Below, in pieces: positions 1 to 49,340 of a stretch of 64,000 bases of DNA (its first letter is position 1; every line of letters begins with the position of its first letter). The stretch spans positions 3,534,001 through 3,598,000 of the forward strand of contig NZ_WFKL01000001.1 of NCBI RefSeq assembly GCF_009208105.1. The letters are read 5' to 3'. The notes under the pieces are model-generated. The model worked only from the letters and a program-made list of their open reading frames with translations. It made no database searches and was not told the origin of the DNA. Origin of the DNA: Rouxiella sp. S1S-2 (GTDB taxonomy: Bacteria; Pseudomonadota; Gammaproteobacteria; Enterobacterales; Enterobacteriaceae). Both the position numbers and the translations under genes were made by a program.

Positions 1-13
1 AGGAAAATGATGA

Positions 14-916
14 ATGCTCGCTCAACAGAACATACTGGCACTATTGCATACGTTTGAAACGGCAGCACTGCATATGAGCTTTACTAAGGCGGCGACTACT
101 CTCAATCTGACGCAAGGGGCCGTTAGCCAACGCATTCGTTCTCTTGAATCCATGCTCGGATTCAGACTGTTTATTAGAATGACCAGAAAGCTTCAGTTGA
201 CCGATGAAGGGGAGCGTTTACTTGGCGTACTCGCGTTTTCACTTAAACGCATCAGTGATGAAATAGAAGATATTCGCGTGCAGGGGCTAAGAGGAACCTT
301 GTCTGTCGGCCTTCCACCTACCTTCGCTTTTCTCTGGCTGATGCCGCGCTTACCGGTATTTACCGAACGGTGGCCGGGGCTGAATATCAATTTCAGAGTG
401 AGAGCCGGTCTGGTAGATTTTAATCTCGAACGAGTAGATGTCGCTATCTACTACAGTAATCTGAAATACCCCGATCTCTACTGCGAACGGTTATCTGAAG
501 AGACGCTGGTTCCCGTCTGTATTCCATCTCTTGCAAAAAAAATCAGGCAAGCAAACCATTGGTTAGCTGAAGTCCCATTCATTCATACGTCTGAATCCGT
601 TGACTCCCAGAATGTTTTTTCCGAATGGCGAGAATGGTGCAGGGAGTCTGGCAAAAACCTGCCTGTTGAAGATAATTTTTTGAGCTTCAACAATTGTCAG
701 ATGTCTATTGAAGCGGCACTCAATGGCGGCGGTATCATCATGGGCAGAAAACGACTCATTCGACATTACCTCGATGAGGGCCGACTGATTGCCCCTTTTG
801 AAATAGAAATACCCGCCGGGCGAGGATATGACCTCATTATGCCACGAGAAAACCTTAACCGACCGGGCGTTCAGGCTTTGGCCGAATGGGTAAGAAATGT
901 GTTTAACGAGGAATAA
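14..916 (+). CDS. LysR-family transcriptional regulator
   Basis: A 300-residue DNA-binding regulator. The N-terminal 60 residues hold a winged helix-turn-helix of the LysR type (TKAATTLNLTQGAVSQRI followed by LESMLGFRLFIR). The remaining ~200 residues form the effector-binding domain of the LysR class. The overall pattern resembles the GcvA-like branch. The start at 14 is chosen because AGGA lies at 1-4 with suitable spacing; two other ATGs at 7 and 10 are too close to it. The gene is complete and converges on the minus-strand TetR/decarboxylase pair across a clear terminator hairpin. Its target is unknown: no divergently transcribed partner is visible because the window begins here, and LysR genes usually regulate the neighbour upstream. 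Family call is firm, function open. Confidence 0.9.
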   Translation: MLAQQNILALLHTFETAALHMSFTKAATTLNLTQGAVSQRIRSLESMLGFRLFIRMTRKLQLTDEGERLLGVLAFSLKRISDEIEDIRVQGLRGTLSVGLPPTFAFLWLMPRLPVFTERWPGLNINFRVRAGLVDFNLERVDVAIYYSNLKYPDLYCERLSEETLVPVCIPSLAKKIRQANHWLAEVPFIHTSESVDSQNVFSEWREWCRESGKNLPVEDNFLSFNNCQMSIEAALNGGGIIMGRKRLIRHYLDEGRLIAPFEIEIPAGRGYDLIMPRENLNRPGVQALAEWVRNVFNEE

Positions 917-1003
917 AGTCTGTTTTCGTTCTGATAAAGGGCAATGTAAGCCATATCAGACCTAATGCCAGAGAGCATGATGAAAATGTATGTCAGAAGT
1001 GAA

Positions 1004-1025
1004 AAAAGGGCAGTCATGCCCTTTT
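1004..1025. terminator. Bidirectional rho-independent terminator
   Basis: Perfect 9-bp stem AAAAGGGCA / TGCCCTTTT with a 4-nt loop, flanked by A-rich and T-rich tracts on the two sides, so it can serve both the upstream LysR gene and the convergent minus-strand gene ending at 1044. Confidence 0.85.
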
Positions 1026-1043
1026 ATATTTTCAACGCGATAA

Positions 1044-1385
1044 CTATTGCGCTTTCAGTTGCTTAATCGCATCCAGCGTACGTGCGGAATAGACAACGGC
1101 AGCGCCTGCATTCAGGTTGATTGCCACACCCAGGGCTTCAGCAATTTCTTCTTCTGTGGCGCCAGCTTTAACGGCAGCTTCGGCATGGACGGCGATGCAA
1201 CCATCACAGCGAGTCGTCACCGCACAAGCCAGTGCAATCAGTTCACGCACTTTCGCGCCCAGGAGGTTGGTCTTATTGCCGGCGTTGCCCAAAGCCATGA
1301 CGCCTTTTAGTGTTTCCGGGGTCAACTTACCCAGATCACCAACACGTTGCATCACTTCTGAGCGGTATTCATTCCAATCTAACAT
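1044..1385 (-). CDS. Carboxymuconolactone decarboxylase / AhpD-like protein
   Basis: A small (about 113-residue) all-helical protein of the CMD/AhpD-like family. The hallmark CxxC followed by His is present (CDGCIAVHAEAAVKAGATEE), the redox-active centre of alkylhydroperoxidase-type members, so a peroxide- or disulfide-reducing role is more likely than true carboxymuconolactone decarboxylation. The start is placed at 1385 (MLDWNEYRSEV); an upstream in-frame ATG at 1418 would overlap the preceding gene. It lies 16 nt after the TetR gene on the same strand, so the two probably share a transcript and respond to the same ligand. A downstream hairpin at 1004-1025 terminates the unit. Confidence 0.85.
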   Translation of the reverse strand: MLDWNEYRSEVMQRVGDLGKLTPETLKGVMALGNAGNKTNLLGAKVRELIALACAVTTRCDGCIAVHAEAAVKAGATEEEIAEALGVAINLNAGAAVVYSARTLDAIKQLKAQ

Positions 1386-1401
1386 GGGGTCATATCCAGA
1401 A

Positions 1402-1971
1402 TTATTTTCTTTTAACAATCATTAGGATCTGTTCAAGCGTATCGTTGAAAAGCTCAGGCTTATTAATCGCCCGGGAAACAACGCTAGCGCCCTCGCATAA
1501 ATTCAAAATAAGCAGAGCCATTTTTGATGGCAGCAGGTCAGCAGTCAGCTCCCCTGCATCAACACCACGGCTGACAATCTTGGTCAACCAGGCAATCTGC
1601 ATATCGAAATATTCGGTCGCCTGTACTCTGATATTCGGTGGCAGATTGGCCATTTCCGAAGACAAAGCACAGCACAGCGGCATACGCGACGTGCGATAGC
1701 TTTCGATGAAAAGCTCTACATAGGCGGTAAGCATCTGCGCAACCGTATTCTCCGTCGCTTCAATCTGTTCAAATCGGTTTTTGGTATCGGTATGGGCCTG
1801 AATCACCACTTGTTCGCCCAAAACGTCTTTGGTTGGGAAGTGGTGATGAATACTGGCCTTAGTGATACCAATGCTCTTTGACAAATCAGCATAGCTGAAT
1901 GCAGAGTAACCCCGTTCGCGCATCAGATGGTCCGCTTCATTCAGAAGCCTTTCTCGTGTCATGACTGACAT
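1402..1971 (-). CDS. TetR-family transcriptional repressor
   Basis: A one-domain TetR regulator of about 189 residues. The N-terminal helix-turn-helix is typical (GYSAFSYADLSKSIGITKAS then IHHHFPTKDVL), with a helical ligand-binding C-terminus. The start at 1971 follows GTGAGGA with good spacing. A longer reading frame from 2034 would run through the operator and has no ribosome-binding site. The palindrome at 1991-2006 is just 20 bp upstream of the start, which suggests autorepression. A nearly identical palindrome precedes the OsmC-like gene, so this protein likely controls both units. The inducer is unknown; the redox-type targets point to an electrophile or peroxide, as for NemR-like regulators, but this is inference. 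Confidence 0.9.
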   Translation of the reverse strand: MSVMTRERLLNEADHLMRERGYSAFSYADLSKSIGITKASIHHHFPTKDVLGEQVVIQAHTDTKNRFEQIEATENTVAQMLTAYVELFIESYRTSRMPLCCALSSEMANLPPNIRVQATEYFDMQIAWLTKIVSRGVDAGELTADLLPSKMALLILNLCEGASVVSRAINKPELFNDTLEQILMIVKRK

Positions 1972-1990
1972 ATAATCCTCACAATTATAA

Positions 1991-2006
1991 TCTACTAGTT
2001 GGTAGA
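1991..2006. promoter_or_regulatory. Probable TetR operator (autoregulatory site)
   Basis: Imperfect palindrome TCTACTAGTTGGTAGA with TCTAC/GTAGA half-sites, immediately upstream of the TetR start. It shares CTACTAG-N-TGGTAGAT with the site at 2772-2787, 780 bp away in front of the OsmC-like gene. Two matching palindromes at two promoters are strong in-sequence evidence for a shared operator. Confidence 0.75.
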
Positions 2007-2153
2007 TATTATCTGCGCCTGTTGTTCCCTGCAAGGGGACATTAGTTCACAACAGTAATTTAACCTTTCTGATAACGCGTTTTGGTCGGAGTTAATAGCC
2101 ATCAGGCAGTAGGGAAATGACAGTGTTCAGGCATTTCCCTCTCTGAGCTTTAC

Positions 2154-2711
2154 CTACACCAACCGAGTATCAATATTGACCGGGTTCGCCAACGTATCGT
2201 GGATCGGCGAGCTTTCTGGCAGTGCACGAACCATTTCTTCAAGCTGTTCACGGCTGGCGGTCGGACTGGAGAGCTTAACGCCAACACGGATCGCTTTCGC
2301 CCCGTTGCGAACTTTTTCGTCAAGACCCAGGAAACCGTTCAGATTAATGTCGAAGTTCAGGTCAAGTTCAATACCATCAAGCTCAATGCCCTTTTCTGCC
2401 GCCATCACAGTCAGAGTCGCGGTATAACAGCCGGCAAGTGCCTGCAAAATGTACTCAGCTGGGCCCATACCGCTATCAGTACCCGATAAATCAGCAGGTT
2501 CATCGCCAACATTAGCAAATTTTCCGGAGCGACTGGTATCAACCTGGCCGTTCTGGATAGTCGCATGAGTTTCCACACGGACGGATACCCCACCGTTGGA
2601 TTTACTCTTCATGTTAAAGGTGAGATTGCCCAGCTCTGGCTGCTGGCGAATAGCTTCTCGTGTACCGCGAATAACATTAGCGTCAGCAAAAGGTTTTTTT
2701 GAATTAGTCAT
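2154..2711 (-). CDS. OsmC-like redox protein
   Basis: A 185-residue member of the OsmC/Ohr superfamily, homodimeric cytoplasmic proteins that reduce organic hydroperoxides with cysteine thiols. The first conserved cysteine is visible in LQALAGCYTATLTVM (near residue 97). The segment that normally holds the second, resolving cysteine reads SSPIHDTLANPV, with Ser in place of Cys. Peroxidase activity of the classical type is therefore doubtful; many OsmC-like proteins of this form have no assigned reaction. Start at 2711 follows CAGGAG with normal spacing. It is transcribed alone, with a TetR-type operator about 60 bp upstream, and a single gap separates it from the TetR gene. Confidence 0.88.
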   Translation of the reverse strand: MTNSKKPFADANVIRGTREAIRQQPELGNLTFNMKSKSNGGVSVRVETHATIQNGQVDTSRSGKFANVGDEPADLSGTDSGMGPAEYILQALAGCYTATLTVMAAEKGIELDGIELDLNFDINLNGFLGLDEKVRNGAKAIRVGVKLSSPTASREQLEEMVRALPESSPIHDTLANPVNIDTRLV

Positions 2712-2771
2712 GACAACTCCTGAAGATGTAGTGTAATTTTAAATGTAGGGTATGTGCGACTCAGCACCAAC

Positions 2772-2787
2772 CTACTAGATGGTAGAT
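2772..2787. promoter_or_regulatory. Probable TetR operator upstream of OsmC-like gene
   Basis: CTACTAGATGGTAGAT, 61 bp upstream of the OsmC-like start and nearly identical to the palindrome in front of the TetR gene (1991-2006). The rest of the gap 2788-3077 holds no convincing gene; it is AT-rich and contains a small hairpin at 3001-3022 just before the next ribosome-binding site. Confidence 0.75.
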
Positions 2788-3077
2788 TACTCTTTGATAA
2801 GAAAATTGTCTACTACTATTGATATTCGCTTTGGAAGACATAACATGGAGACATCGTAAGCTCATGAATTATAAACAAAAATCATTAAGAAGAATCATTA
2901 TATTACTGATGAAGAAATTTTTAACATCGGATTGTGTAAATCAACAAAGGAACAGATCCCCTGCACTTCTGTCCCGCACTGAGGTATGCAGTGTGCAACT
3001 CAGCCCTATCGCTACTGGGCTGTAATAATCGAATCAGATAATTGCTTAAAGCACGAATAAGTAAGGAGTTATATAGT

Positions 3078-3965
3078 TTGGATAATAAACTACTGAAATC
3101 GTTCATTATACTGTCTCAAAGTCGGAGCTACAGAGAAGCTGCTGAGAAACTATTCATTACTCAACCTGCTCTGACAAAGCAGATAAACCTTCTTGAGCAA
3201 GAATTAGATTTATCTCTTTTTGAACGTGATAATCATGGTGCAAGACTGAGCGCGGAAGGGGAGATGCTTTACCGGAATGCCCTAGTGCTTGATGAACAAA
3301 TAAATCACTTTTTATGTGTCGCAAAAAAAATCCGCACAGGCAAAACTGGTAATCTTAATATTGGATATACCTCATCTTTTCTAAATATTATCCCCAATAT
3401 TATTAATGCATTCAATAACCAATATCCAAATATTAATATAAAACTTATTGAAATGCCTTCAGTACAACAAGAACAAGAGTTACTTAAAGGCCGGATTGAT
3501 TTAGGTTTTATGCGAAAAACAGAAGGTGATACTTTATCTTTCATGCCACTTGGTAACGATTACCTATGCGTTGTGACTCATCCTGATATAAAAAACAGAA
3601 AGAAAAGTATCGATGATTTAATCGACACGCACAATATTATTTTACTAAGTGAAATCAGTAATCCAGAACTCTATCACGTCATCAGTGATTATCTTAAACA
3701 TCGTCACCTCGACAAGAAACCTGTTCAATATCTGACAAATGTGTATAGCGTGCTGGCTCTAGTTGGATCACGTATGGGGGTCACGCTCCTTCCTCACAGT
3801 ATAATTTCATTTTTAAAATCCAACTTTTCGTGTGAAGCTTTAACAGACTTTCATAGTGAATGGGTGTTAGGTCTTGCATGGAATAAAAAAGTAGATATTC
3901 CTCTACGTACGGAGTTCATTAACAGTGTGGTTGAAAACAATCAAAGTGAAAACTCAAACTCTTAG
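3078..3965 (+). CDS. LysR-family regulator next to the AfsA-type operon
   Basis: A 295-residue LysR regulator. The N-terminal helix-turn-helix is clear (SYREAAEKLFITQPALTKQI then LEQELDLSLFERD). The rest is an effector-binding domain. A TTG start at 3078 is chosen because AAGGAG at 3063-3068 is correctly spaced; an upstream in-frame TTG at 3042 has no such site. The gene is AT-rich like the biosynthetic operon and differs from the flanking stress genes. It converges on that operon, ending 29 bp from its last gene. A pathway-specific activator or a receptor for the product is plausible, but being at the far end from the operon promoter is unusual for a LysR activator, so the link is by proximity only. 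Confidence 0.88.
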   Translation: MDNKLLKSFIILSQSRSYREAAEKLFITQPALTKQINLLEQELDLSLFERDNHGARLSAEGEMLYRNALVLDEQINHFLCVAKKIRTGKTGNLNIGYTSSFLNIIPNIINAFNNQYPNINIKLIEMPSVQQEQELLKGRIDLGFMRKTEGDTLSFMPLGNDYLCVVTHPDIKNRKKSIDDLIDTHNIILLSEISNPELYHVISDYLKHRHLDKKPVQYLTNVYSVLALVGSRMGVTLLPHSIISFLKSNFSCEALTDFHSEWVLGLAWNKKVDIPLRTEFINSVVENNQSENSNS

Positions 3966-3994
3966 ATTCAAAAAGGAAGTAACTATAGATATAA

Positions 3995-4702
3995 TTACTT
4001 CTTAATTTCAAGAAAAGACAATGTAATCATAAGAGATGAATTTAAGACTCTCTCTTCTGGAAACTGCTGTTCTTCCAGCAGTTTCAGCGCATGGTCAAAA
4101 TTCCCCATCTGAGAGCAGTAATGTGCATCCGAACCGACAGAAACATATCCTCCAGCGGACTTAACTTCTTCGATAATCTCACGGCAGTTTGCCGAACTCC
4201 CTTTGCGGGCAACAGCAGAACCACTATTTATTTCTAGTGCGACATTATTTCTGGCAGCCTCAGTGGCAATAGCCCGGTAATCAACAGGAAACTTCGGATT
4301 GCCAGGATGAACGATAATTTTCACAGATGGATGATTTATCACTTTCATAAGACAGTCTGTATTTTTTGTTACATCAGAACATGGGGGATACACTGCATCG
4401 TGAAATCCCGCCATGACAAAATCGAGTTTTTCAGACATCAGGTTATCGCAATCAATACTGCTGTCCTTATAAATATTGGCTTCAATTCCTTTTAAAATTC
4501 GGAGCCCGTCTACTAGTTCTGGGATAGCATTCATATTAAGAAAATGCCACTTGTGAGAGGAATCATCAAGAGCAGGTCCATGATCCGTTATTGCTATCGC
4601 CAGCATATTTTTACGCTTAGCCTCCATGATGTATTCAAACACTGAACTGTAGGCATGTGCACTTGCATGAGTATGCATATGCAAGTCGATCAACAGATTC
4701 AT
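3995..4702 (-). CDS. PHP-domain phosphoesterase (YcdX-like)
   Basis: A 235-residue polymerase-and-histidinol-phosphatase (PHP) domain protein, a trinuclear metal phosphoesterase resembling E. coli YcdX. Metal-binding motifs occur in the expected order: DLHMHTHAS near the N-terminus, ITDHGP, KGIEANI, IVHPGNP and VGSDAHY. It is the last gene of the seven-gene operon, 11 bp after the transporter. In context it could remove a phosphate from an intermediate carrying a phosphorylated glycerol- or dihydroxyacetone-type head group, giving the operon a second phosphatase beside the HAD protein. The substrate is not shown by the sequence. Length and motifs are normal for the family, so it should be active. 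Confidence 0.87.
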   Translation of the reverse strand: MNLLIDLHMHTHASAHAYSSVFEYIMEAKRKNMLAIAITDHGPALDDSSHKWHFLNMNAIPELVDGLRILKGIEANIYKDSSIDCDNLMSEKLDFVMAGFHDAVYPPCSDVTKNTDCLMKVINHPSVKIIVHPGNPKFPVDYRAIATEAARNNVALEINSGSAVARKGSSANCREIIEEVKSAGGYVSVGSDAHYCSQMGNFDHALKLLEEQQFPEERVLNSSLMITLSFLEIKK

Positions 4703-4713
4703 ATATTCCTCTT

Positions 4714-5901
4714 TTAGTTCAATATACGTAAAAATCCTTGAGCCTTACTTATCTTAACAATAAAAAGACAAAATATTAATAGTGCTGTTAACACCACAGG
4801 AAGGGATAAAATACCAAACTGATCCAGTAATAAACCGCCTGCAAGACCGCCACCAGCAATTGCCATATTCCAGATAGTTACCATAAGAGACTGCGCTATA
4901 TCAGCAGCATTACCAGCAGTGCGTGCAGATGCAGTCTGAAATAATGTTGCACCGCCACCAAAACCCAACCCCCATAAAAGTGCACCGCTCATAACGAAAT
5001 AAACGTTGTCATGAAATAAAGAAAATAACAAAGACGACATGATGAATAGAGACAATCCGCACAATGTAAGAAACTTAAGATGCTTGTCGATAAACACACC
5101 AGTAATTATAATACTGATAACTGCCATCACGCCAAAAACCAACAGAAATGTACTGATAAATTTACTATCCAGTGATGTAATTAAATACGGAGAAATATAT
5201 GTATACATCATGTTATGACCGAGTGAAAAAATAAAAGTCGCTAATAATATTGTTTTAATTCCTGGTATAGATACCGCTTTACCAACAGAAATACGCTCTG
5301 CATGACTTATTCCCGGTTGATCCGGTAAAGTGAATGCACCAGCAATAAAAAGCAAACCGGCCAGTACCGTCATAGTATAAAAAATAGTACGCCAGCCATA
5401 AATATTTCCCAAAAATGTTCCTGCAGGAACTCCCAGAGAAAGCGCCAGTGGAACGCCTAGCATGACAATTGTTATCGCCCTACCCTGATGAGCCGGAGCC
5501 ACCATTCTGCCAGCATAGCCCGCAGCCAGTGCCCATAAGAGACCCGCAAAGATTCCAGCCAAAAAGCGGGCGACAAGCGTAACAATAAACGAATCAACTG
5601 CAGCAGTGACAGCATTTGATAAAGCAAACCCTGCCAATGTAATTAATAATAGTTTTTTTCTTGACCAGTGCTGTGTTGCCAGTGTTAAAGGAATAGCCGA
5701 CAACAGTGAACCGATGGCATACAAAGTCACCCATTGACCCGCTTCGGAAGCGCTTACACTGAAAGTCAGCTCCAGTGAATGAAGAAATCCTGCAGGAAGC
5801 GCCTCAGTGAGAATTGAAAGGAAGAGAGCTGCGCCTATGATGCCGAGTTTAAATACGGGTAACCTCGATTTTTCATCTGTCAATTTAATTAATTCAGTCA
5901 T
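4714..5901 (-). CDS. MFS transporter, drug:H+ antiporter type
   Basis: A 395-residue inner-membrane protein with about 12 predicted hydrophobic spans, of the 12-helix DHA1 branch of the major facilitator superfamily (AraJ/NepI/YdhP-like). The loop between helices 2 and 3 has a degenerate family motif (TLATQHWSRKKLLLITL), and a run of ARFLAGIFAGLLWALAAGYA follows. It lies in the small-molecule operon, 12 bp after the aldo/keto reductase and 11 bp before the PHP gene. An exporter of the operon's product, or of a precursor, is the simplest role. Self-resistance or sugar efflux, as known for relatives, are alternatives. Confidence 0.87.
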   Translation of the reverse strand: MTELIKLTDEKSRLPVFKLGIIGAALFLSILTEALPAGFLHSLELTFSVSASEAGQWVTLYAIGSLLSAIPLTLATQHWSRKKLLLITLAGFALSNAVTAAVDSFIVTLVARFLAGIFAGLLWALAAGYAGRMVAPAHQGRAITIVMLGVPLALSLGVPAGTFLGNIYGWRTIFYTMTVLAGLLFIAGAFTLPDQPGISHAERISVGKAVSIPGIKTILLATFIFSLGHNMMYTYISPYLITSLDSKFISTFLLVFGVMAVISIIITGVFIDKHLKFLTLCGLSLFIMSSLLFSLFHDNVYFVMSGALLWGLGFGGGATLFQTASARTAGNAADIAQSLMVTIWNMAIAGGGLAGGLLLDQFGILSLPVVLTALLIFCLFIVKISKAQGFLRILN

Positions 5902-5913
5902 GCACTTGTCCGT

Positions 5914-6939
5914 TTATTTAATCATGCCGTAGGCTTTCATGAACTCTTCAGGATAACGTGTGCCTGCAGTTTCATGACTTGATATGATATCAGTGATAGT
6001 TGAAATCTGTTCTGGGGTTAACGTTATGTCAGCAGCCTGAATATTTTCATCTAGGAATTGAGGCGTCCGGGTTCCCGGGATTGGAATGATCTTGGGCTCG
6101 CTGTTCATTATCCAGGCCAGTGCAAGCTGAGCAGGAGTAATTCCATTGTTCTTGGCAAATGTCCTAAACTCATCAACGATGGCATTGTTTGCTTTAAGAT
6201 TACTTCCCATAAAACGCGGTAGGTAACGTCGGGAGTCGTTTTCTGAGAGGGTATTGAGATCCTGTAATTTCCCTCCAAGCAATCCCCGACTTACAGGACT
6301 GTATGCAACGACAGAAATTCCCAGATTATTACATGTCTCCAGGAGACCATTATTTTCAATATCACGGGACATCAATGAGTATTCTGTCTGAACTGCACTC
6401 AAACCAAATTCACCATCCGACAACTTCAGCAACAACTCATGCGCAAGCTTGATGGTTTCGGCGTTAACTTCTGACAGACCGATAGCACCAATTTTGCCAT
6501 CAGACCTTAATTGATACATTGTCGTCATGGCTTCTCTGAGTATATCCTGATCCTGAATAACCCGGTGCAGGTAATACAAATCAATCCTTCTTTCTAGCCT
6601 TTCAGAACTCCTCTCAAAGCAGCTTAAAATATAATCACTACTGTTATTTACTTCCCGGTAAAGAGGATTGTTAACATCCCTAACTATTCCGCATTTTGTC
6701 GCCAAAATAATCTCATCTTCAGGGTGTTTATTCAGAACCTTACCGAGAAGTTTTTCATTATGTCCATATCCATAGATATCTGCAGTATCGAGAAAGTTAA
6801 TTCCCTTCTCAATGACTCGCTCGAGCATTCTCTCTGCATCAATTTCTGACGTCAGACCGTAGAATTCGGACAATCCCATGCAGCCATAACCTTCGGCTGT
6901 AACATTCAAAGTAGAATGTCCAAGCTTTATTTTTTTCAT
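5914..6939 (-). CDS. Aldo/keto reductase
   Basis: A 341-residue NADPH-dependent oxidoreductase with a TIM-barrel fold, of the AKR group that includes aryl-alcohol dehydrogenase-like and YajO-like enzymes. The catalytic tetrad can be placed: Asp in NFLDTADIYG, Tyr five residues later, Lys in ILATKCG and His in DLYYLHRV. The C-terminal cofactor segment (IPIPGTRTPQFLDENI) is present. Length is normal. It follows the HAD phosphatase by 28 bp in the AfsA-type operon. In butanolide and furan pathways a reductase acts on a butenolide or 3-keto group, and this enzyme could fill that place even though Streptomyces uses unrelated reductases. General carbonyl reduction is the conservative call. Confidence 0.87.
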   Translation of the reverse strand: MKKIKLGHSTLNVTAEGYGCMGLSEFYGLTSEIDAERMLERVIEKGINFLDTADIYGYGHNEKLLGKVLNKHPEDEIILATKCGIVRDVNNPLYREVNNSSDYILSCFERSSERLERRIDLYYLHRVIQDQDILREAMTTMYQLRSDGKIGAIGLSEVNAETIKLAHELLLKLSDGEFGLSAVQTEYSLMSRDIENNGLLETCNNLGISVVAYSPVSRGLLGGKLQDLNTLSENDSRRYLPRFMGSNLKANNAIVDEFRTFAKNNGITPAQLALAWIMNSEPKIIPIPGTRTPQFLDENIQAADITLTPEQISTITDIISSHETAGTRYPEEFMKAYGMIK

Positions 6940-6967
6940 AATCGATTACACCTTAAATTATTTAATT

Positions 6968-7657
6968 TCATAACCAGTGTTTTTCTGTAACCAATTCCTG
7001 ATCGATTTGAATTAGCATATCCCTTGTAATATCGGCCACTGATGAAGCTATATACTTCACTCCTGTTTCCTGCATTTGTTCTTTTTGATAGTTTGTTACC
7101 GGAGTTCCGATAAAACCAGTTCTGTAGTATCTTGCGACCTCAGCCATTCTATTGATATCGTCAATAAATAAGACCTCATCAAAGTCTAAATGAAATATAT
7201 CTTTAGTGATCTCCATGACACCAGGCCTAATGGAGTTAGTATCGACATATGGCTTTTCTTTATCGAAATATTTTTTTAACGAAGGCATATGTTTGTCAAA
7301 AATATATTCCTTTGTCCGTCCGCCGTATGAGGTTACTCTGACATTAAACTCCTGTAAAAGACCAAGAAAACTTTCCGTACCCGGCACAACTTCTATTGGA
7401 TTTTCCTCAATATACTTCCCATGATGTTGAAAAAACGCTTCTATAGTTTTTTGTGCCGACCATGGCAGTTTGCATGCTAACGACATATTGTGCCCACCTG
7501 CAATATGAGGAGAGCCCCAGACCTGTCTTTCCAGCTCTGGTGTATAAACACCTCCGTGTTGTTCAACAAAAGATCTGATTGCTGGGCTGTAGGTATCAGT
7601 TAAAAGTACACCATCAACGTCAACAGCGACGAGTTTGATCTTATTGAAAATGCTCAT
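6968..7657 (-). CDS. HAD-superfamily hydrolase (probable phosphatase)
   Basis: A 229-residue haloacid-dehalogenase-like hydrolase. Motif I is the nucleophile stretch VDVDGVLLTD near residue 13. Motif II Ser/Thr is in RVTSYGGRT, a lysine follows in the LKKYFDKEKPY stretch, and the metal-binding acidic motif IV is VLFIDDINRMAEVA. This is the layout of a small-molecule phosphatase. It starts 8 bp after the ketosynthase stop. In the furan-hormone pathway of Streptomyces coelicolor a HAD phosphatase (MmfP) acts after the AfsA-like MmfL. This protein occupies the equivalent logical position, dephosphorylating the AfsA product. That parallel is an inference from operon content, not from sequence identity. 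Confidence 0.82.
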   Translation of the reverse strand: MSIFNKIKLVAVDVDGVLLTDTYSPAIRSFVEQHGGVYTPELERQVWGSPHIAGGHNMSLACKLPWSAQKTIEAFFQHHGKYIEENPIEVVPGTESFLGLLQEFNVRVTSYGGRTKEYIFDKHMPSLKKYFDKEKPYVDTNSIRPGVMEITKDIFHLDFDEVLFIDDINRMAEVARYYRTGFIGTPVTNYQKEQMQETGVKYIASSVADITRDMLIQIDQELVTEKHWL

Positions 7658-7665
7658 ATTCAGGC

Positions 7666-8895
7666 CTATTCGTTAGAAGAAATGATAAGTGCCCCATTAT
7701 GGCCACCAAATCCCATTGATAGTTTTAAGGCATGACGGATTTTGAGTTCGCGAGATTCTCCGTAAACAACATCAAGATTAATTTCGGGATCTACAGAACT
7801 GAGATTTACTGTAGGTGGAATGATCCCATGTTTAACAGAAAGAATAGTCATTACTGTTTCCACAGCTCCAGCTGCTGCTAATGTATGCCCGATTGCCCCC
7901 TTTAATGACGTTACAGAGACATGCCGTCCAATTTCTTTTTCAATGACTCGGCCCTCAGTGACATCATTCAAGCGAGTGGAAGTCCCATGAGCATTGACAT
8001 ACTGGATATCTTCACCTTGTAAGCCCGCGTTGTTCAATGCTTGCTTAATGGCTGCTGACAATCCCACCCCTTGAGGATGAGGTGTGGTTACATGGTAAGC
8101 ATCCGTTGTAAGACCCGTTCCACTTAAAAGAGCCAGTACCTCTTGCCCCCTCGCGATAGCATGTTTTTTGGACTCCAGAACCACAAAACCGGCTCCCTCA
8201 CCAATAACAAAACCATCGCGGTCTCGGTCAAAAGGTCTGCTTGCATGAGCGATGTCGGGATTTTTGGACAAAGCTCCTAGACGATTCATACCACTAACGA
8301 TTAAAGGAACGATTGGAGCTTCAGAAGCACCAGCAATTACCACATCGCAGAGTCCCTGTTTAATCCAATTACAGGCCGTATCAATAGCCGTGATACCAGA
8401 AGCACAAGCAGTGCTCACAAGTAAGCTGGGGCCAGTTGCATGGCAGTCAATGGCGATCTGCCCTGCAACCATATTCATCATTGCGCCAGGGATAGTAGAA
8501 GGTGACACCATCCGATCACCTTCTGACTGGAGAACCTGCTGTTCATGCAGTAATCGCTCAATCCCGGCAAGTGAGTTTCCTACCACCACTCCAACACGTG
8601 CGCCATTCCATGTTTTTGGATCAAGCCCTGCATCCGCTACTGCTTCGCGATATGCAACTAGCGCCAACTGAATAAATCTGTCAATACGCCTTGCCAGACT
8701 ACGTCCAAGAAATTTATCAGGATCAAAATCCGGAATGCAGCAGGCATGATCAATTTCAAGCCCTTCCAATTTCTCGCATTTTCGTGCCGCTGATTTACCA
8801 CTGAGGAAAAAATCCCAACTTGCAGCAACATTTATTCCAGCGGGGCACACTAAACCAGTCCCGGTAACAGCAATACGGGTGTTGTTATCCAACAT
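7666..8895 (-). CDS. Beta-ketoacyl-ACP synthase (FabF-type, stand-alone)
   Basis: A 409-residue condensing enzyme of the KAS-II/FabF type. All catalytic residues are present: Cys in VSTACASGI (about residue 163), His in NAHGTST (about 300), Lys and His in LKGAIGHTLAAAGAVE (about 330-336). A glycine-rich C-terminus (MGFGGHNGALI) closes the fold. The start at 8895 follows AAGGGGTG; the reading frame stays open further upstream but overlaps the ACP gene. It begins 4 bp after the ACP stop, a tight arrangement suggesting translational coupling. With the adjacent ACP it can make a beta-ketoacyl-ACP, the donor used by AfsA-family enzymes. A dedicated copy beside an AfsA homologue argues against housekeeping fatty acid synthesis. 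Confidence 0.92.
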   Translation of the reverse strand: MLDNNTRIAVTGTGLVCPAGINVAASWDFFLSGKSAARKCEKLEGLEIDHACCIPDFDPDKFLGRSLARRIDRFIQLALVAYREAVADAGLDPKTWNGARVGVVVGNSLAGIERLLHEQQVLQSEGDRMVSPSTIPGAMMNMVAGQIAIDCHATGPSLLVSTACASGITAIDTACNWIKQGLCDVVIAGASEAPIVPLIVSGMNRLGALSKNPDIAHASRPFDRDRDGFVIGEGAGFVVLESKKHAIARGQEVLALLSGTGLTTDAYHVTTPHPQGVGLSAAIKQALNNAGLQGEDIQYVNAHGTSTRLNDVTEGRVIEKEIGRHVSVTSLKGAIGHTLAAAGAVETVMTILSVKHGIIPPTVNLSSVDPEINLDVVYGESRELKIRHALKLSMGFGGHNGALIISSNE

Positions 8896-8899
8896 AATT

Positions 8900-9130
8900 T
8901 CACCCCTTATTTTTAATATAATCTGAAATATCTTTTGCTGTGAAATCAGGAAGAATATCCCCATCCGGAATTTTAATATCAAACGCTCGTTCCAAATCAA
9001 GCTGAATTTCAATCGTTATAATGGAATCGACACCAAGGCTTTCAAGGTCATTATTTTCCTTGACCTTTTCCTCATTAAGTCCAAAATTCCCTACAAGAAT
9101 CTCGACAACTTTATCTTTTACCGCATCCAT
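8900..9130 (-). CDS. Acyl carrier protein
   Basis: A 76-residue acidic four-helix acyl carrier protein. The phosphopantetheine attachment serine is Ser36 in LGVDSIITIEI, with the usual Asp before it. The sequence is not the housekeeping AcpP, which in enterobacteria reads LGADSLDTVE, so this is a dedicated carrier. It sits between the AfsA-like gene (15 bp upstream) and the ketosynthase (4 bp downstream). It should carry the growing acyl chain to the ketosynthase and then to the AfsA-like enzyme. No phosphopantetheinyl transferase is visible in the window, so activation must rely on a host enzyme such as AcpS. Confidence 0.92.
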   Translation of the reverse strand: MDAVKDKVVEILVGNFGLNEEKVKENNDLESLGVDSIITIEIQLDLERAFDIKIPDGDILPDFTAKDISDYIKNKG

Positions 9131-9145
9131 GTTATCACCTCTGCA

Positions 9146-10096
9146 CTAATCAATTACATTGAATGAATATTGCATCTCGGCAATATCCACTCCTCCCTGC
9201 CTCAAATGAACATTAAATACCATTATATTATTTGAAACACCTAAAGCTATTACTGAAATAATTTCAACATCTTTATCAAGTTCTGCATAATGAAAGAACT
9301 TACTTTTCATTTCAATTAGAACAGGAAATCTACCCACCTCAAATTCATATATCCAAAGTTGGCAGTTTTGTTTACCTGCCTCCATCAACACCATTGCTGG
9401 GTAATGGTCCTGAGCATGATCAAAATAAGCTGTATTATCCATATTTACAGCAAGCTTTGAAATTATTTGGTTTTCATTAAAAATAGGCATGTTCACGACA
9501 ACATTGTTTTCTCCCCTGCGAAACACTCTTTGAGGGATTATTCTCGTTGTTTTATCAAAATCTGTAATTGACTTTGATGAGTAAGCTTTGATTTTTTCTT
9601 TCCGCACAACACAATAGGCATTGTCTGTCATGTATTTGACTGACATATACACATCTGCTATATGTAGATGGTCTTGATAAACATCAATATTATATGATTG
9701 AGAAAGAAGCTTTTCTTTTACTCGCCGAGTATTACTTGTAACTATTTTCAAACTAACATAATGATTTAATAAGTCAGTGGTAGGAATAAAGTTCGCGGTA
9801 AAATTGCAAGCCCACTCAGTTAAAATAAATCGTGTATCTAGTGGTTGTTTTTCATATTTGTGAACAATATATGTTTCAGCCTGCCTAGCACATTCTAACA
9901 AATTCATAAGATCAGTCAGAGGTCTAGCATGGTCATTGTAATAATGATGTTCGTGTAACAAGGCATGAGCTAAGTATTCGGTGGAGTTAGACGAATTGCA
10001 AAAAGATAAAAAAATCTCATTTTGTTCATTCTTGTGAAGTAATCGCTGATCAAGTAACGGCTCTTCTTTTACTTCAACTTCAGTAACAGACTTCAT
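9146..10096 (-). CDS. AfsA-type tandem hotdog protein (gamma-butyrolactone/furan biosynthesis)
   Basis: A 316-residue protein with two copies of the A-factor biosynthesis hotdog motif. The first is YYNDHARPLTDLMNLLECAR followed by Gln (residues 52-72, with Asp55, His56, Glu68, Arg71, Gln72). The second is FDHAQDHYPAMVLMEAGKQ (about 224-242). Two halves and about 300 residues match AfsA, ScbA and MmfL of Streptomyces. These transfer a beta-ketoacyl chain from ACP to a phosphorylated three-carbon alcohol (dihydroxyacetone phosphate), the committed step to gamma-butyrolactone, butenolide and furan hormones. It heads the seven-gene operon, directly before an ACP and a ketosynthase that would supply its substrate. 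The gene is strongly AT-rich, a sign of transfer. A related acyl-transfer reaction with another acceptor cannot be excluded. Confidence 0.83.
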   Translation of the reverse strand: MKSVTEVEVKEEPLLDQRLLHKNEQNEIFLSFCNSSNSTEYLAHALLHEHHYYNDHARPLTDLMNLLECARQAETYIVHKYEKQPLDTRFILTEWACNFTANFIPTTDLLNHYVSLKIVTSNTRRVKEKLLSQSYNIDVYQDHLHIADVYMSVKYMTDNAYCVVRKEKIKAYSSKSITDFDKTTRIIPQRVFRRGENNVVVNMPIFNENQIISKLAVNMDNTAYFDHAQDHYPAMVLMEAGKQNCQLWIYEFEVGRFPVLIEMKSKFFHYAELDKDVEIISVIALGVSNNIMVFNVHLRQGGVDIAEMQYSFNVID

Positions 10097-10298
10097 GCTA
10101 TACAGGCCTCCACCTTAGAATGGTTGAATTTTATACGCACACCACTTCAGACGTATAATGAATAATTTCTATGGCGTAATAACAAAATGTCATCACACTA
10201 TTTAGTTTTTTCTTATATCTAAAAATCAATAAAGCCCATCAATCTCATAATACGGCCAATTTCACTGATTGGTTTTATTGTTCGGAAGGAGATGCTTT

Positions 10299-11219
10299 AT
10301 GCCAGAAAATGACTCTTACCTAAGTTTTATAAATAGGACTCCAAACTGGTTAACTATTCACGAAGCTGTTGATTTAATAAACGCAACAGCAGAATTTAGA
10401 ATCAATGATTTTGACATTTATCGCCAAGCATTATATGGGAACATCTATCTTTCCATATACTTCCAATCCCCTCTTGCATTAAGAAAAGTTCACGTGACGA
10501 ATCAAAAAATAAATCTTAGACCTACAAGTAATTCACTGATTGAAAGGCTATGCCTACTCGAAAAGCACTGTTTCATTAGCAGCCGAAATTTAACTATCAG
10601 TACCGAAGGTAAATACATTCACCCTCTGCAAATGATTATTGACACTCCCTTATTGGGATATGAATATGTCCTTGTGCAACGTCTACTTGCCTACTCACTG
10701 AACATCCCTCTCCCTATAAATGGAGTGAATAATATGAATTATGGCATTTCCGTTAGTATCAACGGGGAATTATTCCAAGTATTTGAACAAAACACATGGC
10801 ATGAAAGGATACAACAGCAAAAAATGAAACTACCAGAGGATGTCGCTCAGGAGATTGAAGTTTATATTTCATACGAAAATCGGTGTCAGCAAAAAGGGTA
10901 CTTCCCAATACATAACTTACCACAAGATGCGTGTTTTGTGATTCGGCATTCGGAACTTGATAAAATAATCAATATTTTCTTTAAGAAAAAAACACCCACA
11001 GCGACCTCAACACGTATATCGACACCACTATCTCGTATGTTCTGGCTTGCCTGTAAAAATAATCAGGCGATTAGTCCGTTAATCAAGCAACCGTATAAAC
11101 TATTATCCATTTTTGAACAATGGGCTTCGGAGGAGGGCATTACTGAACGATTCAGTGGCGACACACTGAAGACTGCCCTTGAACGCGGCTCGCCCCCGTC
11201 CATGAATACACAAAAGTAA
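10299..11219 (+). CDS. ICE backbone protein of unknown function
   Basis: A 306-residue soluble protein that I do not recognise. The start at 10299 is preceded by AAGGAGATGCTTT. No membrane segment or catalytic motif is visible. The N-terminus (WLTIHEAVDLINATAEFRI) could fold as a small helical DNA-binding-like module, and the C-terminus ends with a helical segment. It is divergent from the AfsA-type gene across a 200-bp AT-rich gap that must hold both promoters, and it is followed by AlpA and other ICE regulatory genes. Position suggests a regulatory or backbone role; nothing more can be supported. Confidence 0.7.
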   Translation: MPENDSYLSFINRTPNWLTIHEAVDLINATAEFRINDFDIYRQALYGNIYLSIYFQSPLALRKVHVTNQKINLRPTSNSLIERLCLLEKHCFISSRNLTISTEGKYIHPLQMIIDTPLLGYEYVLVQRLLAYSLNIPLPINGVNNMNYGISVSINGELFQVFEQNTWHERIQQQKMKLPEDVAQEIEVYISYENRCQQKGYFPIHNLPQDACFVIRHSELDKIINIFFKKKTPTATSTRISTPLSRMFWLACKNNQAISPLIKQPYKLLSIFEQWASEEGITERFSGDTLKTALERGSPPSMNTQK

Positions 11220-11358
11220 GATGATGTCCCTTTGCTATGACAGTCCGTATTAAGGGATCGAGTTGCCGTAATACGGGCTCATCAACTTTCTCCACACCAC
11301 TACTTTGTGTTGTCGTGTTATCTCCCGGCTAGCGCTATATCTGCCACAGGAGAATACC

Positions 11359-11553
11359 GTGACATCTCATCAGTTATTACGTCTGAAACAGGTTGAAGAA
11401 AAAACTGGCTTAAAGCGTTCTCAAATCTATCTGTATATGAAAGACGGTACCTTCCCCCGCTCAATCAAGATTGGCCCGGCCAGTGTCGCCTGGCTCGAAT
11501 CGGAAATTGACGAATGGATCAATATTAAATTAGTCCGCCGTTCAATAGGCTGA
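11359..11553 (+). CDS. alpA: AlpA-family DNA-binding regulator
   Basis: A 64-residue winged/MerR-like helix-turn-helix protein of the AlpA family. The pattern LRLKQVEEKTGLKRSQIYLY, then MKDGTFPRSIKIG and VAWLESEIDEWI, is characteristic. AlpA-type proteins act as transcriptional regulators or excision directionality factors in enterobacterial islands and prophages. A GTG start at 11359 is chosen because AGGAG lies at 11348-11352; the frame is open further upstream but without a start signal. It opens a short run of ICE regulatory genes with the next gene 14 bp downstream. Confidence 0.88.
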   Translation: MTSHQLLRLKQVEEKTGLKRSQIYLYMKDGTFPRSIKIGPASVAWLESEIDEWINIKLVRRSIG

Positions 11554-11567
11554 AGGGAGAAAACACC

Positions 11568-12155
11568 ATGATTATCCCGTCACTTAATTACGCCGTATTA
11601 ACCGATGCCCTACATGCATTGAAGGAGGGCAACATTCGTCACTGTGAATCGCTAGGATTCACTTTCGATGAAATGAATGCCCTCAACCAATTATCACTGG
11701 ACGAGCTGTTTATCATCAGTCGGGAGTCTGCGCAGTTTTTGGCTGTGACGGTTCATCACGACGCATTACACCTGCTTCTGGCTAAATCCCGTGAGGAGGT
11801 TCTGCAGCAACAACGTATCAATCATGCCATCCGGCTTGGGGGGTCAATTGCGCTACTCAACAAGTATTTTGGCCTCACCTCCAACGAAGTTTGCCTTCGC
11901 CGCCGGTTACTGGGCGTCCGAGTGCCTTATGGCCGGACGCCAGAGCCGGACGAAGATACGGATGCGGCCATCTGGCTGCAATGGCAACAATGCCGTGTGG
12001 CCAGTCTGGAATCAACCGATGCGCTGGACGCCATGATGCAGGTAACGCAAACCCTGCTGGCGAAAGTCGAAGGATTGTCACTGACCATCGTCTGGAAGCG
12101 TATCGCACTTTGCGAGCGGGAGGCGTCAGACCGGAGGGCCGCACATGCCGGATGA
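11568..12155 (+). CDS. DUF2857-like ICE protein
   Basis: A 195-residue protein resembling the DUF2857 family that is common downstream of AlpA genes in enterobacterial islands. It is soluble and mostly helical. The middle stretch (LNKYFGLTSNEVCLRRRLLG) looks like a DNA-binding helical module and resembles the N-terminal part of FlhC-type activators. It starts 14 bp after alpA behind AAGGGAG, and its end overlaps the next gene by 11 bp, so the genes are co-translated. A regulator of transfer genes is the likely role. The family assignment is from memory of the pattern and not verified by search. Confidence 0.65.
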   Translation: MIIPSLNYAVLTDALHALKEGNIRHCESLGFTFDEMNALNQLSLDELFIISRESAQFLAVTVHHDALHLLLAKSREEVLQQQRINHAIRLGGSIALLNKYFGLTSNEVCLRRRLLGVRVPYGRTPEPDEDTDAAIWLQWQQCRVASLESTDALDAMMQVTQTLLAKVEGLSLTIVWKRIALCEREASDRRAAHAG

Positions 12156-12354
12156 GATCGACCGCGATCAGGAATTTAATGAGCAACGACTGGAGGAGAT
12201 GATTGAACAGAGTCGTTTTAAGCCAGGGCCTACGCCATCATTATTCCATTGTCGTGTATGCGGTAAGCCCATTCCTGAAAAGCGACGGCTGGCACTGCCG
12301 GGCATAACCACCTGCACGGAATGTCAGGAAAAACTTGAACGCCGAAGACGTTAA
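12145..12354 (+). CDS. TraR/DksA-type zinc-finger protein
   Basis: A 69-residue protein with a C-terminal four-cysteine zinc finger: FHCRVCGKPIPEKR followed by TTCTECQEKL, spaced as in TraR and DksA. It lacks the long DksA coiled coil, so it belongs to the short TraR-like class carried by plasmids, phages and ICEs. TraR binds RNA polymerase in the secondary channel and mimics DksA with ppGpp. A similar role in setting transcription of the element or the host is plausible. The start overlaps the upstream gene by 11 bp and the gene is followed by a strong hairpin. Confidence 0.85.
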   Translation: MPDEIDRDQEFNEQRLEEMIEQSRFKPGPTPSLFHCRVCGKPIPEKRRLALPGITTCTECQEKLERRRR

Positions 12355-12364
12355 TAATGGTCAC

Positions 12365-12399
12365 AGAGACATGCAGGAATATTTTCCCTGCATGTCTCT
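12365..12399. terminator. Long hairpin, probable terminator after the regulatory genes
   Basis: 13-bp perfect stem AGAGACATGCAGG / CCTGCATGTCTCT with a 9-nt loop, starting 11 bp after the zinc-finger gene. It lacks a long T tract after the stem, so termination strength is uncertain. Confidence 0.65.
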
Positions 12400-12750
12400 A
12401 TCATTAACTATAAATCCACAGTTGTCTTTATTAGATATTTCACTTCCTTTTATTTACCCCAAAGCTTATCCCCCTCCACCGCTAATTTATCTCTCTCATT
12501 TTAACTTTGAATTTATCGTTCATATACCGCCCCGGATATCTGATCCTGAAAACCTCATTACATAATATTTACCCGTATTGACGTTAATTTGCTTGGATCG
12601 GGCATTGCTCTTTAAAAATAAGGTTCTGGCTGTCACGAAACCACAATTCAGGGTGCCGCTGAATGTTCTCGCTGACCCGTTAAAACCGGAATGCAGAATT
12701 GGGATGTGACATTTATTTAACTCATCGTTGTTTTTAGTAGAGGAGGTCTC
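12400..12750. other. Intergenic region before the transfer genes
   Basis: No gene seen. The first half is very AT-rich with runs of C (untranslated, no start signals). A small hairpin ATTCAG-7 nt-CTGAAT occurs near 12650. The end carries GAGGAGG directly before the ATG at 12751. The region most likely holds the promoter for the virB gene set, but no clean -35/-10 pair could be assigned. Confidence 0.5.
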
Positions 12751-12972
12751 ATGCGAAAACCCATTTATCACGTATTTGTCACCCAAGAAAGTCAACCCGA
12801 TGCACAGGGCGAAATAAACACGTATTGGACCAGGGTTGGCGTGGCGTTCGCTCATAACGGTAAGTCTGGCCTGAATATCATGCTGACACCCGGTATTGCT
12901 GTCTCCGGCAAGCTGGTGCTGCTTGAACCCAGAGAAGATAGCGGCATTTCGCAGGATACCGCCTCTGCTTAA
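12751..12972 (+). CDS. Small conserved mobile-element protein
   Basis: A 73-residue protein of a type often found beside conjugation or integrative-element genes, recognised by the pattern YWTRVGVAFAHNGKSGLNI followed by a proline-rich closing strand (GKLVLLEPREDSG). It has no catalytic residues, signal peptide or membrane span and looks like a small beta-rich domain. The strong GAGGAGG site precedes it. It is the first gene of the transfer region, 68 bp before virB1. Function is unknown. Confidence 0.75.
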   Translation: MRKPIYHVFVTQESQPDAQGEINTYWTRVGVAFAHNGKSGLNIMLTPGIAVSGKLVLLEPREDSGISQDTASA

Positions 12973-13040
12973 TCCGCTTTTGACCTTCCTCCGGCAGGGG
13001 CTTGGTACACACCCGCCGGGCTGACTGTTAAGAGGCCACC

Positions 13041-13688
13041 ATGCTATCCACCACAGCCTTTCTTACGCTGGCGATGCAGTGCGCCGCCAGCGTTCACCCT
13101 TCTACGGCACTTGATGTGGCACGGGTCGAATCCGGTTTGAATCCATATGCCATCGCCGAAATTATGCCCGGTGGTAAAGGCGTGACTTCACATTTCCCCG
13201 CCAGTAAGGATGAGGCGGTCAGCCTCACCGCACGTCTGGCGGCAAAGGGCCGACGCTATTCGGTCGGGCTGATGCAAATCACCAGCACCAATTTCCGTCA
13301 TTACCGCGTGAGTGCCCGTGACCTTCTTAACCCCTGTACCAACCTGTCCGTTTTTGAGCGCATCCTCACCGACTGCTACCGCCGCGGCGGTTCCCTCAAG
13401 CGTGCGCTCAGTTGCTACTACTCGGGAAATTTCACGACCGGCCAACAGCCGGAATCCGCGTTTAACCACACCAGCTACATCCAGCGCATCGGCTACGCCG
13501 TGCCGTCAACGCGGGAAGACCGGCGGCGACCTCCCGCCGAAATGCTCGCGCCGGAAATCCATTACCCCACCGCCGTCATGCGTGGCGAGCTTAACGATAA
13601 CGCCACGCCAGTTCTGATATCCCTGCGCTACCCCAATGCCGTGATACGCGGCACATTATCCATTCCCGGCCCCCAGGAGGAACAATGA
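13041..13688 (+). CDS. virB1: VirB1-type lytic transglycosylase
   Basis: A 215-residue periplasmic peptidoglycan-cleaving enzyme that opens the wall for the type IV secretion channel. The catalytic glutamate is in ARVESGLNPYAI (about residue 30), followed by SVGLMQITSTNF and ALSCYYSGNF, the three sequence blocks of the SLT domain. A hydrophobic N-terminus serves as export signal. The C-terminal ~50 residues are a linker with two similar strands (YPTAVMRGEL and YPNAVIRGTL), a small internal repeat. The gene overlaps virB2 by 4 bp (ATGA type), so translation is coupled. It heads the virB operon. Confidence 0.92.
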   Translation: MLSTTAFLTLAMQCAASVHPSTALDVARVESGLNPYAIAEIMPGGKGVTSHFPASKDEAVSLTARLAAKGRRYSVGLMQITSTNFRHYRVSARDLLNPCTNLSVFERILTDCYRRGGSLKRALSCYYSGNFTTGQQPESAFNHTSYIQRIGYAVPSTREDRRRPPAEMLAPEIHYPTAVMRGELNDNATPVLISLRYPNAVIRGTLSIPGPQEEQ

Positions 13689-13966: not shown

Positions 13967-13977
13967 GGGAGGTAACG

Positions 13978-16725: not shown

Positions 16726-16748
16726 TATTCATGACGGAGGTAATGAAA

Positions 16749-17468: not shown

Positions 17469-17478
17469 GGAGGTTAAC

Positions 17479-26265: not shown

Positions 26266-26272
26266 AGGGGGA

Positions 26273-49332: not shown

Positions 49333-49340
49333 ATTTAGAG

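Follow-up and report, generated by a model that had tools for sequence, protein, structure and literature searches.

A mobile AfsA-type operon on a tRNA-Asn integrative and conjugative element of Rouxiella sp. S1S-2, with a probable pathway to an exported butenolide, gamma-butyrolactone, or close relative

The 64,000-nucleotide (nt) stretch of the Rouxiella sp. S1S-2 genome analyzed here (contig NZ_WFKL01000001.1, positions 3,534,001 to 3,598,000; hereafter the window, in whose positions all coordinates are given unless marked as genome positions) carries seven minus-strand open reading frames (ORFs; 3995-10096) within an integrative and conjugative element (ICE). In order of transcription, they encode a 316-amino-acid (aa) AfsA-family tandem-hotdog protein, a predicted phosphorylated-butenolide synthase (9146-10096); a dedicated 76-aa acyl carrier protein (ACP) with its phosphopantetheine serine at S36 (8900-9130); a 409-aa FabF-type beta-ketoacyl-ACP synthase, or ketosynthase (KS; 7666-8895); a 229-aa haloacid dehalogenase-type (HAD) phosphatase (6968-7657); a 341-aa aldo/keto reductase (AKR; 5914-6939); a predicted major facilitator superfamily (MFS) exporter of 395 aa (4714-5901); and a 235-aa PHP-domain protein, a candidate second phosphatase (3995-4702). 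Convergent with the operon lies a plus-strand gene for a LysR-type regulator (3042-3965; PF03466/PF00126), a candidate for control of the cluster. The start of the KS gene was corrected, as the listed ORF (7666-9012) overlaps the ACP gene and the likely gene is 7666-8895. A first-pass annotation, made from the sequence alone, had described seven genes of these families with gaps of 4 to 28 bp; the ORFs and gaps (15, 4, 8, 28, 12, and 11 bp from AfsA to PHP) were verified, and Pfam agreed with the families, weakly for the HAD. The GC content of the operon is 40.6%, compared with 55.2% for the VirB genes of the same element.

The AfsA protein was assigned to its family by two hotdog repeats over the curated cutoff together with family-invariant polar residues in both halves. 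The hidden Markov model search that the first-pass annotation had proposed as a check matched PF03756 in two stretches (4.3e-27; 95.2 bits, over a cutoff of 24). An alignment of 51 rows from Enterobacterales, actinobacteria, and other sources held 29 invariant columns across both halves, with invariant residues E68, R71, Q72, E74, and T75 in the one and D226, H227, Q229, D230, H231, E239, and Q243 in the other; 25 columns were invariant in a 24-row alignment that included two distant E. coli AfsA proteins. The AlphaFold2 model (mean predicted local distance difference test [pLDDT], 90.2) is a tandem hotdog whose nearest solved structures are acyl-ACP thioesterases and dehydratases (template modeling [TM] score, about 0.5), and a sequence search for solved relatives found none at E values up to 0.01. 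The ACP matched PF00550 (1.3e-10). In both the window and Erwinia persicina, its gene shares a reading frame with AfsA, from which it is separated by one TAG and five codons. AfsA and ACP form a single protein in four protein clusters (P0003, from E. coli, P0004, P0009, and P0010; the listed sequences of P0003 and P0010 start within AfsA), and these natural fusions suggest that AfsA acts on its partner ACP and, by extension, that the AfsA of the window uses the ACP of the operon. A similar physical link is described for gladiostatin of Burkholderia gladioli, where an ACP-phosphorylated butenolide synthase (PBS) di-domain frees beta-keto thioesters from the ACP by condensation with dihydroxyacetone phosphate (DHAP) (PMC7756379, as excerpted). 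There, as is proposed here, an ACP-bound beta-keto thioester and DHAP are the substrates; in contrast, the gladiostatin domain ends a large trans-acyltransferase polyketide synthase (PKS), whereas the window encodes a stand-alone AfsA, one ACP, and one KS.

Catalytic motifs are kept in the ACP, KS, HAD, and AKR as well. The KS (PF00109/PF02801) keeps Cys164, His303, and His337 in an alignment to a solved FabF protein. The HAD protein scored 20.6 bits against Pfam, below the cutoff of 26.4, and had no NCBIfam match; its AlphaFold2 model (pLDDT, 95.5) has a HAD phosphatase fold, with the best TM score to pseudouridine-5'-phosphatase and further matches to beta-phosphoglucomutases and YniC. It carries the DVDG and DD motifs, the DxD residues D13 and D15 are kept, and Asp occupies the nucleophile position in this protein and in all 42 rows of the HAD alignment. 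The AKR (PF00248, 2.4e-68) has perakine reductase as its nearest solved protein (6.3e-58) and contains, by motif, candidate Asp, Tyr, Lys, and His residues that we take to be the catalytic tetrad. The MFS protein matched PF07690 (9.8e-44) and, below their cutoffs, PRK03545 (sugar transporter) and the Cmx/CmrA drug-efflux models. The PHP protein matched PF02811 (1e-9) and had PRK09248 as its best NCBIfam match (2.7e-88; 295.6 bits, over a cutoff of 264), and is of the YcdX type.

The HAD protein ties the operon to actinobacterial butenolide loci. Among the 120 homologues listed of 146, many that share 50-55% identity with it are assigned by name to Streptomyces, Micromonospora, or Kitasatospora, and others at 31-39% identity lie on 19 Streptomyces plasmids. 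Three of these 19 plasmid loci were opened (the two best and one also matched by the AfsA query; L038-L040), and in all three at most a few genes separate the HAD gene from ScbA and ScbR. On S. griseofuscus pSGRIFU1 (L040), the order is synthase, cytochrome P450, HAD (38.5% identical to the window HAD), receptor, and short-chain dehydrogenase/reductase (SDR), which matches the order srrX-srrO-srrP-srrA-srrG given for the SRB butenolide locus of S. rochei pSLA2-L in the excerpted account (PMC7564063). Loci of the srr type thus resemble the operon in pairing a synthase of the AfsA family with a homologue of its HAD, which there occupies the srrP position, a trait known for this type and not for every gamma-butyrolactone system. 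They differ in having an SDR, a P450, and ScbR receptors, and in having no dedicated ACP or KS beside the synthase within the 18.7-kb stretch. In a midpoint-rooted tree of 39 HADs, 22 rows, including all those named as proteobacterial, formed one group (support, 100/98) that splits into a window type (14 rows; 100/99) and an E. coli type (8 rows; 100/99).

All seven genes and the LysR gene recur in the same order, at 79-97% identity, in E. persicina NBRC 102418 (L001). At the protein level, the KS is 97% identical and the LysR protein, conserved beside the operon, 79%. Protein identity exceeded identity at fourfold-degenerate sites for all seven genes (KS, 0.97 versus 0.85; AfsA, 0.83 versus 0.73). 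DNA homology to window positions 1-13000 formed a single block at 89% identity (3078-10535), which reaches ~267 bp into the start of the ICE gene at 10269-11219. The E. persicina locus (L001, 9564-17922) is 0.7 kb from a tRNA-Asn, and no integrase or transfer gene was recognised among the ORFs read there. Because a piece of an ICE gene is retained and tRNA-Asn is nearby, the locus looks like an ICE remnant, and it is likely the relic of a lost element. The first-pass annotation had named two outcomes as refuting it, the lack of an AfsA-family match and neighbors showing the seven genes not kept together; neither was found in E. persicina.

A sister cluster occurs in 13 of 5426 complete E. coli genomes, as found with the KS and HAD DNA (6968-8895) as query and an E-value limit of 1; 11 of the 13 matched at 4e-9 and the remaining two at 1e-2 and 1e-3. 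These 13 include strain 8178 three times and SCU-101 twice, and the type found in strain BCE049 was present at no less than 96.9% identity in 12. Seven of the loci, including those of BCE049, A38, and SCU-101, were opened (L041, L042, L043, and L047-L050). All seven contain an integrase, AfsA, ACP, KS, HAD, MFS, two transketolase halves, and a LuxR-type gene; one transketolase half of SCU-101 is annotated as hypothetical but falls within the 96.9% match. Both E. coli types share the order of the window operon over the first four genes (AfsA, 25-27% identical; ACP, 34-45%; KS, 46%; HAD, 52-54%). In contrast, a two-part transketolase and LuxR stand in place of AKR, PHP, and LysR, and the E. coli MFS had no BLAST match to that of the window. 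The expectation of a conserved seven-gene set was therefore borne out in full by E. persicina and in part by E. coli, which keeps only AfsA-ACP-KS-HAD by sequence. This recurrence, of the whole set in E. persicina and of the first four genes in E. coli, indicates that the gene order is not due to chance. All three LuxR-type proteins that were scanned, from BCE049, A38, and (as a fragment) SCU-101, scored over the cutoff for the autoinducer-binding domain Autoind_bind. In six of the seven loci, tRNA-Asn precedes the integrase, and beyond the cluster lie ICE genes for a hypothetical protein, AlpA, and DUF2857, the same slot as that of the window operon; VirB2-VirB5-type genes were visible in five. 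The exception is A38, with no tRNA in the stretch and extra cargo before AlpA. In SCU-101 (L041), the locus is truncated and abuts colibactin genes, LuxR is split, and AfsA measures 732 nt, compared with 903 in BCE049. No E. coli cluster was found on plasmids and no E. coli AfsA in phages, and no description of the cluster was found in the literature searched. An 11-kb section without predictable role has been reported, with a 14-kb ICE-like section, within the 25 kb between integrase and clbS in three E. coli strains (JML226, KS-P003, and KS-P027) of a pks-island study (PMC8209727); as described in the excerpted text, it fits the E. coli cluster by place and size.

The element that carries the window operon is delimited by a 22-bp perfect direct repeat, one copy of which is at the tRNA-Asn end (genome position 3504518, 29.5 kb left of the window) and the other, attR, a plus-strand repeat of the tRNA-Asn 3' end, at 49316-49337, giving a length of 78,820 bp. 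A 435-aa integrase adjoins the tRNA-Asn and shares 75% identity with its counterpart in the E. coli BCE049 ICE. To the right of the operon lie, all on the plus strand, a conserved ICE backbone gene that forms the right edge of the cargo slot (10269-11219; 52% identical and in the same place in the BCE049 ICE), an AlpA/xis-type regulator (11305-11553; PF05930, 2.1e-26; 85% identical in the E. coli ICE), genes for VirB1, 2, 3/4, 5, 6, 8, 9, 10, and 11 (13041-22965; by Pfam, with VirB2 found only by BLAST to the E. coli ICE), and a type IV coupling protein (24361-26265; PF10412/PF02534). VirB4 is 52% identical between the two elements. Integration at tRNA-Asn between direct repeats, the integrase and xis genes, the VirB system, and the coupling protein confirm the placement of the operon inside an ICE by the first-pass annotation and, as features, set the element beside the ICEKp/ICEEc1 kind. 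The ORF at 26189-27022 had no Pfam match, and no relaxase-specific search of the ICE was made. Given the shared core and ICE genes and the differing tailoring genes, related ICEs carry one core with two tailoring and regulator sets; AfsA-ACP-KS-HAD would be the core cassette, with AKR/PHP/LysR attached in the one case and transketolase/LuxR in the other.

The operon is real, conserved, and mobile, and its genes together outline a likely chemistry. The building blocks would be DHAP and an acyl chain of short or medium length. Working on the dedicated ACP, the KS would use malonyl to lengthen an acyl group supplied by the host and so give a beta-ketoacyl-ACP, as its family and catalytic residues suggest. 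AfsA, in keeping with its invariant residues, fold, and fusions to ACP, would then condense this thioester with DHAP and free a phosphorylated butenolide, a condensation that is established for AfsA and MmfL as well as for the PBS domain of gladiostatin (for the last, PMC7756379, as excerpted). The HAD, homologous to the protein at the srr phosphatase position, would strip the phosphate, perhaps with help from PHP. The AKR may reduce a ketone or the ring double bond, standing in for the short-chain dehydrogenase of Streptomyces; the MFS protein would export the product, and the LysR protein would control the operon. This logic of ACP, KS, AfsA, phosphatase, and reductase had been put forward in the first-pass annotation and is supported by the protein families, the catalytic motifs, the fusions, and the srr-type HAD homology. 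We consider it probable that this mobile operon holds a self-contained pathway to an exported small molecule derived from DHAP: a butenolide, a gamma-butyrolactone, or a compound closely related to these.

Several observations weigh against this reading. Against the ScbA/BarX gamma-butyrolactone synthase equivalog NF041195, the AfsA protein scored 121.7 bits (3.4e-35), below the cutoff of 200. In place of an SDR of the Streptomyces type, the operon has an aldo/keto reductase. The HADs of the three Streptomyces plasmids carry Asn instead of the nucleophile Asp (Asp13 in the window), so HAD homology alone is not proof of a phosphatase. No ArpA/ScbR-type receptor over the cutoff of 150 was found in the genome, where the best of 31 matches reached 74.8 bits; weak ScbR matches, none over the cutoff, also occurred in 13 of the 14 genomes used as controls. 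The cluster is sparsely and unevenly distributed as well: among 392 genomes of the family, 14 had any AfsA match and only the Rouxiella genome itself had one above 31% identity, and the HAD was matched only in its own genome among 394 genomes of the order and 392 of the family (overlapping draws). Co-occurrence in the protein database, which speaks for the pathway, was judged by equal size of the longest contig, which is only a proxy for lying on the same contig; by this measure, 11 of 22 AfsA clusters at 40% identity or more paired with a close AKR cluster (named among them were Pantoea, P. brenneri, Klebsiella oxytoca, and an Acinetobacter metagenome-assembled genome), and 6 of the 22, all within the 11, with a HAD cluster. 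HAD partners were found in this way for 7 of 32 distant AfsA rows, three of the 7 bearing the name Micromonospora or Streptomyces, and one further AfsA-HAD pairing (2275 bases; P0049/P0138) looks coincidental. Locus tags 006047 (AfsA) and 006044 (HAD) of K. oxytoca, and 12745 and 12730 of Gilliamella, are numbered in a way that fits AfsA-ACP-KS-HAD. Carriers in Klebsiella, Yersinia, Serratia, Pantoea, and Citrobacter are represented by the clusters P0005, P0008, P0020, P0241, and P0256.

Of 37 genomes in the genus closest to E. persicina, 3 had AfsA matches, one of them at 83%. No HAD was found in 8 genomes of another genus, and among 331 genomes of the class only the Rouxiella genome was matched; these are weak negatives, as the former draw held no known carrier and the latter no other. 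By megablast, the operon matched none of 72,556 plasmid records and none of the 5426 E. coli genomes, and 7300-10100 had no blastn match in the latter. The AfsA protein matched only 5 Streptomyces records among the plasmids by tblastn, and a scan of IMG/VR with the HAD alignment found none. The TetR gene at 1402-2034 was tried as a receptor and rejected: its ScbR score was second in the genome but reached 66.4 bits (cutoff, 150). It probably lies outside the cluster, because homology to E. persicina starts only at window position 3078.

What the product does, and exactly what it is, admits alternatives. The same DHAP-acyl chemistry might yield an antimicrobial or plant-active compound, with the MFS protein serving export and self-protection and LysR tuning expression; this is a subcase of the butenolide pathway in its chemistry and a rival only in role, and we regard it as a real but minority possibility. 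The drug-efflux matches of the MFS protein, though below cutoff, point this way, as do the service of AfsA chemistry in the antibiotic gladiostatin (PMC7756379) and the antibiosis proposed by the authors of the ICEPan study of Pantoea ananatis for their own AfsA cluster (PMC4458695; both as excerpted). However, Pfam and NCBIfam recognised no resistance gene in the operon besides the exporter, unless the KS is a spare target, and the E. coli sister has an autoinducer-binding LuxR-type protein. Signaling is plausibly somewhat the likelier of the two predicted roles. Phosphatase MmfP takes part in the methylenomycin furan pathway, and a furan of the 2-alkyl-4-hydroxymethylfuran-3-carboxylic acid type, or another nonlactone DHAP product, is a conceivable though unlikely outcome here: no furan-specific enzyme could be named in the operon, and the type of reductase is not decisive. 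In that pathway, too, the opening steps involve a phosphorylated butenolide and a protein homologous to AfsA, MmfL (PMC7756379, as excerpted).

Two further explanations would do away with the proposed chemistry or with function altogether. That the AfsA-like protein has another hotdog activity, as a thioesterase or dehydratase acting without DHAP, in a cluster that makes a modified fatty acid, would accord with its nearest solved folds, with the lack of a solved relative by sequence, and with its score under the curated synthase cutoff. Its invariant residues are nonetheless common to actinobacterial ScbA/BarX-type proteins in both halves, and homologues of the HAD lie near ScbA in Streptomyces, so that we hold this activity to be rather improbable. 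A decaying passenger cluster without present function would find parallels in the shortened AfsA and split LuxR of E. coli SCU-101 and in Salmonella P0027, in which an apparent internal deletion joins the N-terminal half of AfsA to the C-terminal half of KS. In the window, by contrast, all seven genes are open with their catalytic motifs kept, and each gene of the conserved set in E. persicina shows higher identity at the protein level than at fourfold sites, which makes decay very improbable indeed.

The first-pass annotation knew of no characterised enterobacterial example. That stands insofar as no characterised enterobacterial AfsA product was found among the matches listed from the open-licence literature, but genes of this kind are already in print: an AfsA homologue on an enterobacterial ICE was described in 2015 (cluster IR-4A of the Pantoea ananatis ICEPan; PMC4458695), and a "butyrolactone" cluster was called by antiSMASH in a Klebsiella medfly symbiont (PMC9453069, like the former as excerpted). 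The window operon is therefore a new form of AfsA-type pathway and not the first in Enterobacterales. The IR-4A cluster resembles it in carrying AfsA and ACP as ICE cargo and differs in its phosphoenolpyruvate (PEP) mutase, thiamine pyrophosphate (TPP) decarboxylase, and amidotransferase, with no KS, HAD, or AKR named in the excerpted text (PMC4458695). Locus L026 among the family genomes is similar to it in content, and its AfsA is only ~20% identical to that of the window. An "A-factor-like" cluster of Pseudomonas Ps664 has AfsA, a hydrolase, a P450, and MFS (PMC8719888, as excerpted); this arrangement was recognised in family genomes at L021 by Pfam and at L019, L023, and L025 by gene sizes. 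It shares AfsA, a HAD hydrolase, and MFS with the operon, whereas a P450 stands in place of ACP, KS, and AKR, the AfsA is 23-27% identical, and its HAD had no BLAST match to the window HAD. Pantoea PNP-1 (PMC4010436) and cluster 675 (PMC7744662) were rejected as having, in their excerpted accounts, different genes. At least four other AfsA cluster types were seen in the same family (L018-L028): AfsA-HAD-P450-MFS; PEP mutase-TPP-AfsA-ACP-AsnB; AfsA with isoprenylcysteine carboxyl methyltransferase, pyruvate phosphate dikinase, and UbiA; and AfsA with TrpA-like, phosphoribosylanthranilate isomerase-like, and amine oxidase proteins. As a side observation on Streptomyces, the phosphatase role of the Asn-bearing HADs near ScbA on the three plasmids may need checking.

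Hormones of the A-factor type are regarded as actinobacterial. Here, a complete and mobile synthesis set is present in Enterobacterales, and its sister set lies beside an autoinducer-binding LuxR in E. coli ICEs and, in SCU-101, adjoins colibactin genes. A more far-reaching and distinctly speculative reading, to which we give a minority likelihood, is that enterobacterial tRNA-Asn ICEs carry an exchangeable A-factor-type signaling module between integrase and xis/transfer genes, composed of the core, an exporter, tailoring enzymes, and a cognate sensor (LuxR in E. coli, LysR here), such that carriers would announce themselves by a DHAP-derived butenolide and might tie transfer or cargo expression to it. 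Synthesis sets of this kind would make it directly testable what orphan LuxR-type proteins sense and whether ICEs bear a chemical language of their own. The small ACP-AfsA systems, simpler than the Burkholderia PKS, also lend themselves to the study of phosphorylated-butenolide synthases.

Other cargo of the ICE surrounds these genes. To the left of the LysR gene, TetR, carboxymuconolactone-decarboxylase-like, and OsmC genes (1044-2711) are perhaps an electrophile-stress unit. The right arm (27579-48728) encodes a 1226-aa protein (39769-43449) with no Pfam or PADLOC match, an ArdC-type antirestriction gene (27579-28523), and two giant NACHT proteins, one (29591-33931) matching NCAB2 and with an N terminus like PADLOC PDC-M68A and endonuclease effectors, the other (35120-39544) with NACHT below cutoff; the ArdC-type gene and the two NACHT proteins are probably antiphage cargo of the element.

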